Made by a program: the position numbers and the translations under genes
The notes under the pieces: model-generated
Database searches by the model: none
What the model was told of the DNA's origin: nothing
The model's input: only the letters and a program-made list of their open reading frames with translations
In this document: one piece after another, positions 12,159 to 19,101 of the stretch
Layout: each line of letters opens with the position of its first letter
Numbering within the stretch: position 1 is the stretch's first letter
NCBI GenBank assembly: GCA_902771535.1
Contig: CACXWU010000010.1
Location: 1 to 64,000, forward strand
Reading direction: 5' to 3'
Origin: an uncultured Pseudomonadota bacterium
Lineage (GTDB): Bacteria > Pseudomonadota > Alphaproteobacteria > UBA3830
Length of the DNA stretch: 64,000 bases

Positions 12159-12943
12159 TGATTCATTCGACTGCTATTATTTCTGGTAATGCGAAGATAG
12201 GAAATAACGTAGAAATTGGCGCTTATTCGGTTATCGGGGACAATGTTGAAATAGCAGATAATGTGAAAATCATGTCCCATGTTTGCGTGGAGGGAGACAC
12301 GTACGTTGGCGAAGGTACACAGATTTTTCCCTTTGCTGCCATAGGGTTTCCTCCGCAGGATTTGAAATTTCACGGAGAAAAATCGAGGGTTATTATTGGA
12401 AAAAACAACTCGATTCGTGAGTATGTTACGGTTCATCCGGGAACCGAGGGTGGTACGATGCAAACGGTTATCGGAGATAACAATTTGTTGATGATCGGAG
12501 TTCATGTTGCGCATGATTGTGTTGTCGGAAATAATACGGTTCTCGCAAATAATGTAACGCTTGCTGGGCATGTTGAAATAGGTGATCATGCCATAGTTGG
12601 AGGACTGTCTGCCGTTCATCAGTTTGTGAGAATCGGACACAATGCAATAATCGGAGGCATGACGGGAATAGAAAGAGATGTTATTCCTTTCGGAGCAGTG
12701 AAAGGAGAGCGAGGGCACCTGTACGATGTCAATGTTTTGGGATTGAAGAGAGCGAATTATTCCCGCGAAGAGATTGTTGCTATCCGCGAAGCCTATCAGA
12801 TCATTTTTTTCGGAGATGATGTTCTCCTGGAAAATGTAAATGAAGCCGAAAAAAAATTACCAAATTCCGATGGTGTTAAAGAAATAGTAAACTTTATGAG
12901 ATATAAGAGTAACAGATCGTATTGTTTACCTAAAGGGAAATGA
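12158..12943 (+). CDS. lpxA: UDP-N-acetylglucosamine acyltransferase
   Basis: First enzyme of lipid A synthesis: adds a hydroxyacyl chain to O-3 of UDP-GlcNAc. It is a homotrimeric left-handed beta helix; repeated hexapeptides of the type IGNNVEIGAYSVIG fill the first 190 residues. The catalytic His is in GVHVAHDCVVGNN, and the C-terminal helical domain carries GLKRANYSREEI. The 261 residues match E. coli LpxA. It overlaps both neighbours by 1-4 bases, so translation is coupled. Confidence 0.97.
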   Translation: MIHSTAIISGNAKIGNNVEIGAYSVIGDNVEIADNVKIMSHVCVEGDTYVGEGTQIFPFAAIGFPPQDLKFHGEKSRVIIGKNNSIREYVTVHPGTEGGTMQTVIGDNNLLMIGVHVAHDCVVGNNTVLANNVTLAGHVEIGDHAIVGGLSAVHQFVRIGHNAIIGGMTGIERDVIPFGAVKGERGHLYDVNVLGLKRANYSREEIVAIREAYQIIFFGDDVLLENVNEAEKKLPNSDGVKEIVNFMRYKSNRSYCLPKGK

Positions 12944-14856
12944 TGATTGGTATATTTTGCGGAAGAGGAGAGTATCCTCATGTAATTATTGATTCTTGTG
13001 AGAAGCAGAAGAAGGATTTTTGTCTTCTTTTTATTGATGATTATGACCGTACTTTTGTTTATCCGGATGTTCCCAAAATTGTATTTAAGCTGGGGCAGGC
13101 CGGTAAGGTTTTTCAGTTTTTAAAGGTAAACGAAGTAAAAGAAGTCGTTTTTGCAGGACATGTTAAGAGGCCGAAACCTTGGGATTTGTCTCTCGATTTT
13201 GAGGGGTTTAAATGTTTGGTTAAGTTGTGGAAGGCTCTGTTTTGCGCCGGAGACGATGCGTTGTTGCGAACAGTTGCCGATATTTTTAAAGAAAAAGGAA
13301 TTGATCTGATTTCCGGTACTGATCTGGTGAAAAGTGCTTTTTTTCCAGAGGGAATTTATTCTGCGCGAAAGCCGAACAAAGAAGAACAAGCAGAAATTGA
13401 GTTAGGTGTTAAAGAATCTCAGATACTGGGGATTAATGATATTGGTCAGAGCATTGTTGTTTCTGGAGATAAGATAATTTCGAAAGAGGATAAGAGTGGA
13501 ACGGATGCTCTGATCGACAGGTGTTATGACGGGGTGTTGGTTAAAACTTCCAAACCGCAGCAGGATTTTCGCATGGATCTTCCGGTTATTGGTGTTCATA
13601 CCATAGAAAATCTGCATAATCATAATTTTCGTGGGCTTGTCATTGAGGCCGACAGAACTATCGTGTTGAATAAAACAGAGGTTCTGAAAAAGATTGATGA
13701 ATACGGGCTTTTTTTTCAGGTAGTGAAAATTCGAAGAAAACATAAGATATTTATAGTGGCCGGCGAGTCTTCAGGAGATTATCTTGGCAGTCGTTTGATG
13801 AAAAGTTTGAAAAAAATCGACGAAGATATTGAGTTCGTAGGTGTTGGCGGTCCGTGTATGGAGGAAGCTGGGCTCATAAATCTTTGTCCGATCTCGAAAC
13901 TTTCCATTATCGGAATTTGGGAAGTTATTGGGAAGATATTTTACATAAAAGATCTTATAAAGAAGACGGTAGATACTATAATTAATTACAATCCGGACGT
14001 TTTGGTAACGATAGATTCTTCAGGATTTACACACAGAATAGATAAGCAAGTTAAAAGTAAAAAGCCAAGCATTCCGGTTGTACATTATGTTTCGCCTCCT
14101 GTTTGGGCTTGGAGAGGCTGGAGAGCGAAAAATTTGCATAAGTTTATCGATAAGTTGATGGTTTTGCTCCCGTTTGAGGTGGATTTTCTGAAAAATTACG
14201 GAGTAAATACAACTTTTGTCGGGCATCCGATTGCTTCTGATTCGGATTTTGAGAAAAACGACAGTTTGAAATCCGATAATCTCACTATAACTTTATTGCC
14301 GGGAAGTAGGCCTTCGGAACTTGAATATCATATGCCGATTTTGAAGAAATTTTCGGAGATGATGATTGCAAGATATCCGGAAGTCAGATTTTATCTTCCG
14401 ACAGTAAAGACCGTTGCACCTCTGATAAAAAGATATGTTGAAACTTGGAAATACAAACCAATTGTTTCAACAAAAAAGTTGAAAAAAGTAAAAGCGTATA
14501 ATTCGTCTCACATTGCGGTGGCAGCTTCCGGAACAGTTACTCTTGAGCTGGCCAAAATGGGCTTGCCGTTCGTGGTGATATACAAAACTTCTTTCATAAC
14601 CTCCAGGCTAGTGAAGTGGCTTATAAAGGTTCCGTATGTTTGCTTGGTTAATATCTTGGCTGGAAAACCTGTAGTACCAGAGCTTCTGCAAAATGAATGT
14701 ACTCCTGAGAATATTTTCATTGCAGTTGAAAACATACTTAATACGGATTTGAAATATCAACAGCAAAATGAGTTCGCGAAAGTCATGGAGTCATTGAAAG
14801 CCGACAAAATGAAGCCCGCTCAGGAGGTTTTTTCTTATATTAAAGACAAAAAATAA
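12940..14856 (+). CDS. lpxI-lpxB: LpxI-LpxB fusion: UDP-2,3-diacylglucosamine pyrophosphatase and lipid A disaccharide synthase
   Basis: One uninterrupted 638-residue frame joins two consecutive lipid A enzymes. Residues 1 to about 265 are LpxI (DUF1009): GIFCGRGEYPHV at the N-terminus, GTDALIDRC, KPQQDFRMDLPVIG containing the proposed catalytic Asp, and VIEADRTIVLNK. From about residue 270 the GT19 enzyme LpxB begins at IFIVAGESSGDYLG and continues with VGVGGPCMEEAGL, YVSPPVWAWR, VGHPI and LLPGSRPSELE. LpxI hydrolyses UDP-2,3-diacyl-GlcN to lipid X; LpxB condenses lipid X with a second UDP-2,3-diacyl-GlcN. In other alphaproteobacteria the two are separate adjacent genes. The linker is only a few residues (VVKIRRKHK) and I see no internal ribosome binding site. 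The start overlaps lpxA by ATGA. Confidence 0.95.
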   Translation: MMIGIFCGRGEYPHVIIDSCEKQKKDFCLLFIDDYDRTFVYPDVPKIVFKLGQAGKVFQFLKVNEVKEVVFAGHVKRPKPWDLSLDFEGFKCLVKLWKALFCAGDDALLRTVADIFKEKGIDLISGTDLVKSAFFPEGIYSARKPNKEEQAEIELGVKESQILGINDIGQSIVVSGDKIISKEDKSGTDALIDRCYDGVLVKTSKPQQDFRMDLPVIGVHTIENLHNHNFRGLVIEADRTIVLNKTEVLKKIDEYGLFFQVVKIRRKHKIFIVAGESSGDYLGSRLMKSLKKIDEDIEFVGVGGPCMEEAGLINLCPISKLSIIGIWEVIGKIFYIKDLIKKTVDTIINYNPDVLVTIDSSGFTHRIDKQVKSKKPSIPVVHYVSPPVWAWRGWRAKNLHKFIDKLMVLLPFEVDFLKNYGVNTTFVGHPIASDSDFEKNDSLKSDNLTITLLPGSRPSELEYHMPILKKFSEMMIARYPEVRFYLPTVKTVAPLIKRYVETWKYKPIVSTKKLKKVKAYNSSHIAVAASGTVTLELAKMGLPFVVIYKTSFITSRLVKWLIKVPYVCLVNILAGKPVVPELLQNECTPENIFIAVENILNTDLKYQQQNEFAKVMESLKADKMKPAQEVFSYIKDKK

Positions 14857-16265: not shown

Positions 16266-16337
16266 GAAATTTCGCTCAACTCTATAGAAAAATCTGAATT
16301 TTCATATATATTTAATGTACTATCATGAGGTGGTTTA

Positions 16338-16865
16338 ATGATATTGACTTATCAAAAGATTTTGGAGAGTGTGAATAACGGAAAAATTTGCATTTCTCCT
16401 TTCGATGAAGCAATGTTGAACAGCAACAGCTACGATTATCGCATCGACAGAAAGTTGCTTGAAATCGACGATATACCAGTGGATCCCAAGAAGCAGACTT
16501 CGTATCACGAGATAGAATTTAACGATGACGGTTATGTACTCTCTCCGAACAAAACTTATTTGGCGAATACTTATGAAGAAATAGGCAGTAAGGAATTTGT
16601 TCCGTTGTTGATAGGAAAGTCTTCTTTGGGAAGATTGGGGCTGTTTTTGCAAATTACTGCAGATCTTGGAAATTTAGGGTCGGCCCATCGTTGGACTTTG
16701 GAGTTGAAAGCAGTTCAGCCGATAAAGATTTATCCTATGATGAGAATCGGTCAGGTGTCTTTCTGGGAGACTTCCGGGGATAGAGAAATGCTCTACGACG
16801 GGAAGTACAATAAGTTTTCATCAGCAAAATCCAGCGAAATTTATAAGGAATTTATCGGAAAATAG
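16338..16865 (+). CDS. dcd: dCTP deaminase-family protein, paralogue 1
   Basis: Trimeric dUTPase-like fold, 175 residues. The phosphate-binding motif GKSSLGRLGLF lies near residue 94, and the presumed catalytic Glu is kept in TLELKAVQPI near residue 129, followed by MRIGQVSFWETSG. Dcd deaminates dCTP to dUTP, feeding dTTP synthesis; some members also hydrolyse dUTP. The loop before the catalytic strand (ADLGNLGSAHRW) departs from the usual ID-x-G-x-x-G. ATG 16338 follows GAGGTGG. A second paralogue follows 16 bp downstream; the two share the opening MILT and most fold motifs. Confidence 0.8.
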   Translation: MILTYQKILESVNNGKICISPFDEAMLNSNSYDYRIDRKLLEIDDIPVDPKKQTSYHEIEFNDDGYVLSPNKTYLANTYEEIGSKEFVPLLIGKSSLGRLGLFLQITADLGNLGSAHRWTLELKAVQPIKIYPMMRIGQVSFWETSGDREMLYDGKYNKFSSAKSSEIYKEFIGK

Positions 16866-16881
16866 TCGAGGAGTAACAAAA

Positions 16882-17403
16882 ATGATTTTAACCGGTAGCG
16901 AAATTTTAAAAAATTACGAAGAAAAAAGAATAATAATTGATCCGTTTAACAGAGATCAGCTGAACCCGAATTCCTATAACTTTACCTTGGGCAACAAGCT
17001 TTTGGTTTATAACGATTATGTTTTGGATGTAAAAAAAGAAAATCCAGCCAGAGAGTTGGAAATTCCGGAAGAAGGTTTGACCTTGGCGCCGGGTACGGTT
17101 TACCTGGGCCACACGAAAGAAGTGATTGGCAGTGAGTATTTTGTTCCTGTCATCAGAGGACGTTCATCCATAGGACGTTTGGGGTTATTCATTAACATTA
17201 CCGCGGATTTGATTGATGTCGGGGCAATCGGGCAGGTGACTTTACAGTTGAATGCCGTCCAGCCTGTAACCATATATCCGGGAATGCAGATCGGACAGGT
17301 GACTTTCTGGGCTGTTTCCGGAGATGTGAAAAAGTACGATGGGCGTTATCAAAATTCCATGGGACCAGTTGCATCGAAAATGTACGAAGATTTTCGAAAA
17401 TAA
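16882..17403 (+). CDS. dcd: dCTP deaminase-family protein, paralogue 2, with catalytic Glu replaced by Gln
   Basis: 173 residues of the same fold as the preceding gene: GRSSIGRLGLF, then the canonical-looking loop DLIDVGAIGQ and PGMQIGQVTFW. The residue aligned with the catalytic Glu138 of E. coli Dcd is Gln here (VTLQLNAVQP). In characterised family members this Glu activates water for deamination, so this copy may be a non-deaminating partner, a dUTPase-like variant or a regulatory subunit. The ribosome binding site is GAGGAG. The pair probably arose by tandem duplication and diverged in a complementary way: copy 1 kept the Glu, copy 2 kept the loop. Confidence 0.8.
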   Translation: MILTGSEILKNYEEKRIIIDPFNRDQLNPNSYNFTLGNKLLVYNDYVLDVKKENPARELEIPEEGLTLAPGTVYLGHTKEVIGSEYFVPVIRGRSSIGRLGLFINITADLIDVGAIGQVTLQLNAVQPVTIYPGMQIGQVTFWAVSGDVKKYDGRYQNSMGPVASKMYEDFRK

Positions 17404-17476: not shown

Positions 17477-19101
17477 ATGGGGAAGCTGAAAGCGAAGAGT
17501 GGAGATAGATTTTATTCCTGGTGGATTGGTCTAAGTCACAAATCTCGGGTGCGCTTTTCTTTCATTGTCCTTGGGTTGTGTTCAGCTTTAAGTTTTGTGT
17601 CCCCTGTTGGTTATGAAATTACTGAAGAGACTGCTGTATTTGACGATTTCTTGGGATTTTTCTTTATTGCACTATTTGGATTTTGTTTTGTGGTTTTTTA
17701 TATTGGCTTTTTTACTTCATTGGTGCTCTATATTGGTTGGTTTATCCGCTGACTATAGATCTTAATCTTCACTGTGTGTTAATTCCGTTTGCATTGATTG
17801 CAATTCCGACGTATTTAGCGGTTCCGTTGTTGCTGCCGGTGTACATCACGAAGAAGTTCTGCGAAAATGTCTGGATTTCAGCCTTTGTTTTTGCGACATT
17901 AACCTGTTTGGTTATGTATTTGCAAGGACATTATGCGCCTGGATTTCCTTGGGCTCTTCCCGGATATGTTTGGGGTCATAATCTCAATCTTATGCAAGGC
18001 CTAAGTATTTGGGGAATATACGGGCAGACCTTTTTTACGTTGCTTATGGGAAGTATCTTTGGAGTATTTATAGTTGGCCTTAAAGATAATTCCACCAGCG
18101 AAGCGGAGGAACTATCAGAAATTGAGGTTCTTGAAAAATTTCGTAGGTCGGAAATTAATTTCTCTGAGGAGTTAAAAAAGGTCGATTTCAAAAAAAGTGG
18201 TCTTTCTTTTACAATTCTTCTTGTTTCATTTTCATCATTATCTGTTTTCGGAAATATACGACTTTCAGAAAATCCGATGAAGTATACGTCGTACAAAATT
18301 CGATGCGTTCAAGGCAGCATTCATCAAAAGAATAAAATGAACAGAAATTTGTCTGCTCATAATTTAAATCTGTATTTAAATTTGAGTCAAATGAAGTCAG
18401 AACGCGATAATTGGAATCCCGATTTTGTGATTTGGCCTGAAGCAAGTGTTCCTTACCTGTTTACGGATAAATCCAAGACGCTGACTGAAAAATTGGCGGG
18501 TGTAGTGCCGCCTGACGGATACTTATTGACGGGGGCGGTGAGAAAGGATTCCGTTAGCGGGGATATTTACAACAGCGTAATCGTTTTGAATGAATTCGGA
18601 AAAAATGTCACAAATTATGATAAAAAACATCTTGTGCCTTTCGGCGAATACATTCCGTTTCGCAGATTTATTCCCGATGTTTTTGCTCCGATTGCTAACA
18701 GTATCGGAGATTTTGCTGTGGGAAAAAATTCCAACGTAATAGATCTTAAAGGGGTGAAAATGGCTTTAACCGTGTGTTATGAAGCTATATTTCCGGGCGA
18801 GTTTATATCGAGTGACTCCGATATTGATGTTATCGTGAATATCACCAATGATGCTTGGTTTGGACATACATCAGAACCAGCACAACATTTGAATATTGTA
18901 AGAGCAAGAGCGATAGAAGAAGGAGTTCCTCTTATACGAGTGACGAATTTCGGAATCAGTGCGGTTTTTGATGCTTATGGCAGAAAAGTTGATTTTTTGA
19001 GAACGGATGAAGTCGGAGTTATAGATTGTTATATTCCGAAAAAGATCGAAAAAACTTTTTTTCGAAAATTTTTTATGGATAAAATGAAATTAAAACAGTA
19101 G
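17477..19101 (+). pseudogene. lnt: Apolipoprotein N-acyltransferase, interrupted by a frameshift
   Basis: Lnt adds the third acyl chain to lipoproteins in the inner membrane. The N-terminal part (17477 to about 17690) is in one frame, and the rest (open from 17644 to 19101) is one base back. The switch falls in the T-rich stretch 17655-17700, where the needed membrane motif FIGALYWL is readable only in the second frame. Downstream all catalytic parts are intact: Glu in WPEASVPY, Lys in KKHLVPFGEYIPF and Cys in TVCYEAIFP. The second frame has no convincing start. Either the gene is a recent pseudogene, the assembly has a homopolymer error in the T6 run at 17693-17698, or slippage restores the frame. 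The window contains at least two lipoproteins that would be Lnt substrates. Confidence 0.85.

Follow-up and report, generated by a model that had tools for sequence, protein, structure and literature searches.

Two genes of the dCTP deaminase (Dcd) family lie in tandem, in the same direction and 16 bp apart, in the window, by which we mean the whole 64,000-nucleotide stretch of DNA analysed here (G000:C10:1-64000). Both open reading frames were found where a preliminary description of this DNA had put them: copy 1 (16338..16865, forward strand) encodes a Dcd-fold protein of 175 aa and copy 2 (16882..17403, forward strand) one of 173 aa, the two products being 46% identical. Shine-Dalgarno-like stretches can be read from the sequence on the same strand, GAGGTGG (16327..16333) 5' of copy 1 and, between the genes, GAGGAG (16868..16873) 5' of copy 2. 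The host genome, G000, comprises 1.0 Mb, and its close relatives are MAGs named Holosporaceae or Alphaproteobacteria, many of them from ruminants.

Next on the forward strand comes lnt (17477..19101), an apolipoprotein N-acyltransferase by sequence character and the conserved third gene of the block in the window's family. In the window it is read as two overlapping frames of 91 and 472 aa and in near-identical relatives as one ORF of 558-562 aa, the split being either a frameshift in this genome or an assembly error. Elsewhere in the window, a 638-aa ORF (12940-14856) within a run of lipid A genes has, read by eye, the look of an LpxI-LpxB fusion, and it is conserved in the close relatives of the window genome.

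The same pair, adjacent and in the same order, is present in 26 of the 41 family genomes, with 13 genomes carrying neither gene and 2 carrying fragments; an intact single copy without its partner was not found in any of the 41. The order copy 1, copy 2, lnt is kept in 25 of the 25 Holosporaceae loci with room for it (L070-L093, L108 and the window), and the neighbours further out change. One of the fragments, in G012 (L024:1492-1881, reverse strand), is a single 130-codon ORF that joins residues 1-100 of copy 1 to a copy 2-like C terminus and still lies upstream of lnt; it is, to judge from its make-up, a deletion remnant such as a deletion between the two genes would leave. With homologues in distant phyla as well (see below), the pair is, on this distribution, no local accident.

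Active-site residues of the two copies

The preliminary description had quoted the motif stretches ADLGNLGSAHRWTLEL for copy 1 and ADLIDVGAIGQVTLQL for copy 2, and had proposed that Gln replaces the catalytic Glu in copy 2 and that Glu is kept in copy 1. An ungapped alignment with E. coli Dcd (copy 2 stretch RSSIGRLGLFINITADLIDVGAIGQVTLQL, copy 1 stretch KSSLGRLGLFLQITADLGNLGSAHRWTLEL), in which R110, S111, S112 and R115 correspond to residues 94-99 of the copies, D128 to 112, W131 to 115 and E138 to 122, bears this out. On the forward strand, copy 2 has an intact phosphate-site motif II (R-S-S-I-G-R, residues 94-99, 17161..17178), Asp at the Asp128 position (codon 112, 17215..17217) and Gln at the catalytic Glu138 position (codon 122, CAG, 17245..17247). 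Copy 1, on the same strand, has Glu at the latter position (codon 122, 16701..16703), Asn at the Asp128 position (codon 112, 16671..16673) and the motif II K-S-S-L-G-R (residues 94-99, 16617..16634), in which K94 stands for Arg110 and which is degenerate in relatives (KTE..K, KAS..S). The loop of copy 2 had been called canonical; this holds for its Asp and fails at the aromatic W131/F position, which is taken by Ala/Ser, making the loop partly canonical. Neither window copy has an aromatic residue there, and the sugar gate is missing from both chains in the window's lineage; in dUTPases, a Tyr matching the W131 position excludes ribose (PMC12524310).

The residue pattern is more than chance: all 23/23 copy 2s of the family have Q122 and all 23/23 copy 1s have E122, with diverged synonymous sites and a dN/dS of ~0.01-0.04 for both genes against close relatives. 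A sequencing or assembly error at Q122 was ruled out by the presence of Gln in all 23 family members and in other phyla. A further Glu in the active site of copy 2, which would have told against the original proposal, was sought in the alignment and in the predicted structure, and no conserved substitute was found in either; E80, the sole invariant Glu of the copy 2 set, is common to copy 1 and lies outside the site, which rules it out as a replacement.

Fold and relation to known enzymes

Both proteins score above the cut-off of 27 for the DCD profile PF22769 (dCTP deaminase-like domain), copy 1 with 110.3 bits (1.2e-31) and copy 2 with 133.7 bits (7.4e-39). Against the dCTP deaminase equivalog model TIGR02274 (cut-off 92.8), copy 2 is over the threshold at 109.2 bits and copy 1 under it at 88.2, as are both partners of the Pseudomonas orientalis pair. 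With the dUTPase models, copy 2 gave a sub-threshold score for PF00692 (trimeric dUTPase, 13.5 bits, cut-off 22), for which copy 1 had no match, and a weak match to NF002598 (archaeal-type dUTPase, 29.2 bits, cut-off 130). The Asp of the dUTPase catalytic motif III is present in copy 2 as the invariant D112 and absent from copy 1. The predicted monomer structures are confident (pLDDT 94 for copy 2 and 88 for copy 1), the copy 2 model aligning with 3gf0, an engineered E145Q variant from M. jannaschii, over 169 residues (Z 24.1, rmsd 1.2) and the copy 1 model with 2qxx over 175 residues (Z 21.9, rmsd 2.7).

The bifunctional dCTP deaminase-dUTPases (DCD-DUT) of M. jannaschii, M. tuberculosis and B. 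halodurans (1ogh/3gf0, 2qxx, 4xjc) resemble the copies in the fold of the whole chain (Z 24-25 for copy 2, 21-22 for copy 1) and in the positions of the motifs, copy 2 being equivalent at the catalytic site to the engineered E145Q variant. They are, however, homotrimers that carry Glu and Asp in one chain, whereas here the two residues are on two chains, a pattern that speaks against both activities residing in one homotrimeric chain, and the aromatic sugar gate is absent from both window copies. E. coli-type Dcd (TIGR02274) likewise shares PF22769 and aligns without gaps at the RSS..R, D128 and E138 positions, but here there are two genes, with copy 1 under the TIGR02274 cut-off and no chain with the complete residue set: RSS..R, Asp128 and Glu138 do not occur together in any paired copy, copy 1 lacking the Asp and copy 2 the Glu. 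The double-domain alphaproteobacterial dCTP deaminase (PRK07559/NF005734, 2r9q) also joins two unequal Dcd domains, the C-terminal half being without RSS..R; it differs in being one fused chain with Glu in both halves, so that the loss is not reciprocal, and in being only distantly similar. The two copies, which are separate genes, scored 14.5 and 13.3 bits against NF005734, for which the cut-off is 283 bits.

To our knowledge, the well-studied members of the dUTPase/Dcd superfamily are all homotrimers or single fused chains, and the literature searched, in which subscription journals were barely covered, yielded no account of a Dcd that is tandem or heteromeric. The herpesvirus-type monomeric dUTPase has a duplicated fold in which motif III comes from one domain and motifs I, II and IV from the other, with the unused motifs decayed (PMC12524310). 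The logic is the same as that proposed below for the pair, but this is a single chain, a dUTPase rather than a deaminase, and the product of an unrelated duplication.

Distribution, reciprocal losses and history of the pair

A scan of 84,980 species genomes, plus plasmids, recovered copy 2 homologues of 46-64% identity in Verrucomicrobia, Saccharibacteria, Dojkabacteria, Streptomyces, Amycolatopsis, Labedaea, Nocardia, Microbacteriaceae, Blastocatellia, Chlamydiae, Rhodobacteraceae, Rhizobiaceae, Roseobacter and P. orientalis. Nearly every copy 2 homologue outside the family is adjoined by a copy 1 homologue, and homologous pairs are found in Verrucomicrobia, Saccharibacteria, Dojkabacteria, Actinomycetota, Acidobacteriota, Chlamydiota and scattered Proteobacteria. 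The gene order is reversed in Streptomyces NBC_00161 and Nocardia, and in two Microbacteriaceae (Curtobacterium and Microbacterium) copy 1 lies 6.6 kb from a copy 2-PPDK fusion in the same cluster. The pair is rare: at strict cut-offs it was detected in 0 of the 298 other Pseudomonadota genomes in our sample, and only 3 of 198 sampled actinobacterial genomes matched, a number that includes the starting genome itself and a weak single match. A phage origin was considered and rejected; the viral contigs yielded one distant, complete homologue (L031), and phage matches were below 40% identity.

Active-site residues were counted in 37 pairs and two single copy 2s. Glu occupies the Glu138 position in 37/37 copy 1s and in none of the 39 copy 2s (Gln in 33, Thr in 4, Met in 2), a count that by itself is circular, copy roles having been assigned by this very position; the Asp position and the tree (176 columns) are independent of the assignment. 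Asp is found at the Asp128 position in 39/39 copy 2s and never in the 37 copy 1s, which have His, Asn or Gln there. S111 and R115 are kept in 39/39 copy 2s, compared with 16/37 and 20/37 copy 1s, respectively, and S95, S96, R99 and D112 are invariant in copy 2 over seven phyla. Two Microbacteriaceae copy 1s identified later follow the same rule, bringing the total to 39/39 reciprocal pairs in at least seven phyla, and the complementary changes claimed from a single locus are thus borne out more strongly than that locus could have done.

Decay of motif II in copy 1 occurred on at least three occasions, separately in Holosporaceae (KTE..K, KAS..S), in Dojkabacteria (NR..K, AR..K) and in group II, to which the P. 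orientalis pair belongs and in which the motif is gone altogether (NLST, ARLST; NLST..CG). The copy 1s of Verrucomicrobia, Saccharibacteria and several Actinomycetota have kept both RSS..R and Glu and, with these residues, could work alone as homotrimers. The C-terminal tail, which in the Dcd fold lies over the active site, was considered as a third complementary element and rejected, for it varies in both directions: it is reduced in some actinomycete copy 1s and lost from the copy 2 of Dojkabacteria, a shorter protein of 146-150 aa (L111-L113, L116, L117).

A maximum-likelihood tree calculated from 82 proteins unites all the paired ones in a single clade (100/97), with unpaired proteins of Paenibacillus and Aneurinibacillus as its neighbours. 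Copy 1 is a single clade (91/81; 92% of bootstraps) and copy 2 comprises the remaining paired proteins, with no settled monophyly. The sub-branches of copy 1 and copy 2 mirror each other, and the distances within the two sets are correlated (r = 0.77 for 24 thinned pairs; maximum of 0.35 in 5000 shuffles). The unpaired Dcd proteins of this sister group, encoded on P. polymyxa pSC2 and in Aneurinibacillus, the nearest unpaired relatives being plasmid-borne, differ from the paired ones in that a single gene encodes the complete residue set (R,S,S,R,D,F,W,E) on the same chain. The pair appears to have been transferred as a unit, because groupings in the tree, such as Chlamydiae with Pseudomonas, depart from the relationships of the species.

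A proposed split enzyme, its rivals and its possible substrate

In the Dcd fold, motif II (RSS..R) holds the phosphates and places a serine beside the catalytic water, and the deaminating Glu of Dcd lies on the motif III side, as in the E. coli structures. In trimeric dUTPases, motifs II and III of one site come from different subunits (PMC12524310, PMC3905902), and DCD forms the same trimer, with its sites in inter-subunit clefts (PMC4827122). We take the assignment of motif II and the Glu strand to different subunits from the dUTPase papers and, for Dcd itself, from the E. coli structures. We consider it fairly probable, given the residues, their conservation, the co-occurrence and shared history of the genes and the fold, that the pair is a split Dcd-family enzyme whose sole complete deamination site would lie between copy 2, the source of motif II, and copy 1, the source of the Glu. 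The two halves of one enzyme would descend from one ancient duplication, after which each lost what the other kept, and would associate in a mixed oligomer, most simply a heterotrimer, and act on a nucleotide triphosphate. Because motif II and the Glu strand would come from different subunits, RSS..R and Glu would meet only at the copy 2/copy 1 interface, and the retention of RSS..R in copy 2 and of Glu in copy 1, together with the decay of motif II in copy 1, is the pattern that selection would be expected to leave if each mixed oligomer had a single active interface. The other interfaces, to which copy 2 would contribute a motif III with Asp but Gln, might bind nucleotide without deaminating it, in a regulatory or dUTPase-like capacity; a trimer of two copy 2s and one copy 1 would also contain such a site, with Asp and without Glu, between its two copy 2s.

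An obligate hetero-oligomer had been suggested for the pair at the outset, the other suggestion having been a deaminase with a partner that does not deaminate, which is close to the first alternative below. The hetero-oligomer is favoured by the strict reciprocity, by partners staying together and by the completeness of the unpaired relatives; the word obligate goes too far for the several lineages in which copy 1 keeps both RSS..R and Glu.

An alternative that we regard as unlikely, if the best of those considered, is that the copies form two homotrimers acting in sequence, copy 1 being a deaminase with altered sugar specificity and copy 2 a dUTPase (nucleotide diphosphatase) of Dcd descent, in which the Asp is kept and the deaminating Glu lost. 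The dUTPase counterpart of the Asp128 retained by copy 2 positions the water for its attack and also holds the 3'-OH (PMC3905902), the bifunctional DCD-DUT enzymes demonstrate that both reactions suit this fold, and the weak matches of copy 2 to NF002598 and PF00692 and the Met in place of Glu in two copy 2s would also be in keeping with a dUTPase. Yet G000 and most of its relatives already possess a canonical dUTPase, the group II copy 1s, without any motif II, should not bind a triphosphate alone, and strict adjacency and joint loss fit a complex better than two homotrimers. It is improbable, in our estimate, that copy 2 (or copy 1) is instead a pseudoenzyme, with no catalytic residue in use, that regulates or stabilises a catalytic homologue, for example as a dTTP-type sensor. 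Such a role would agree with the loss of Glu138 from every copy 2 and with the regulation of Dcd through subunit contacts in the trimer (PMC4827122), but the invariance of S95, S96, R99 and D112 in copy 2 over seven phyla is more than a scaffold needs, and it is the presumed catalytic copy 1 that loses its own motif II. Least probable of all is a pair of ordinary, redundant paralogues of dCTP deaminase that have drifted since the duplication and feed dUTP to Dut and ThyX for dTMP synthesis: this would suit G000, G001, G004 and G008, in which the pair is the only Dcd-like candidate and the thyX-folD locus is intact without a canonical dcd, but not the strict reciprocity across phyla, the low dN/dS of both genes, the presence of the pair beside a canonical Dcd in most family members, its retention in G002 (96% complete) and G009 (91%), in which ThyX and ThyA were not found, or its position in accessory clusters outside the family.

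In G000, ThyX and Dut are present, and ThyA and a canonical Dcd were not found. Assembly gaps were ruled out as a cause of the missing dcd in G000, G001, G004 and G008, where the thyX-folD locus lies mid-contig (in G006, dcd is beside thyX), and in these four genomes the gene content is such that the pair could supply dUTP. A different set is seen in G015, a family member of 92% completeness that has ThyX and in which Dcd, Dut and the pair were not found; its dUMP for dTMP synthesis either comes by another way or the genes were missed.

Elsewhere, the neighbours of the pair include dNMP-kinase-like P-loop proteins (phrog_139, 4e-16 and 5e-12; PF21448), cytidine deaminase and NUDIX proteins. 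A fusion of a SAMHD1-like HD phosphohydrolase to a TIR-like domain adjoins the pair in Streptomyces, Amycolatopsis and Spartobacteria (L098:2800-4851, L099:259-2886, L102:6533-8554). In Microbacteriaceae and Nocardia (L104:6001-8439, L107:5953-8439, L109, L110), an in-frame fusion joins copy 2 to a PPDK_N/PEP-utiliser protein, and at other group II loci this protein is encoded by a separate gene directly downstream. A defence system was considered, though rejected even with the TIR fusion adjoining three pairs: no PADLOC-DB model of a known or candidate anti-phage system matched the window copies, the P. orientalis pair, most of the neighbours tried or the HD-TIR fusion itself.

A nucleotide is the likely substrate of the pair, though perhaps not plain dCTP: the aromatic residue that excludes ribose is absent from both window copies, and the deaminating half is also without the 3'-OH-binding Asp. 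We therefore raise, tentatively and with more doubt than confidence, the idea that the pair is a mobile heteromeric nucleotide deaminase with a substrate other than dCTP, perhaps a ribo- or otherwise modified cytosine nucleotide. It would then belong to a dispensable nucleotide pathway, joined in other bacteria by the dNMP-kinase-like enzyme, cytidine deaminase, SAMHD1-like HD-TIR protein or PEP-synthase-like ligase.

Taken as a whole, the comparative evidence marks the pair as real and conserved, and as a probably heteromeric variant of a known enzyme family. If heteromeric, it would offer a clean example from nature of complementary loss making an enzyme an obligate heteromer, co-inherited across phyla. 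The annotation of both genes, now named 'dCTP deaminase' or 'deoxycytidine deaminase', would need correction, as it is unlikely that either has this function by itself. In symbionts, candidate-phylum bacteria and actinomycetes, the neighbours of the pair point to nucleotide pathways that are yet to be explored.
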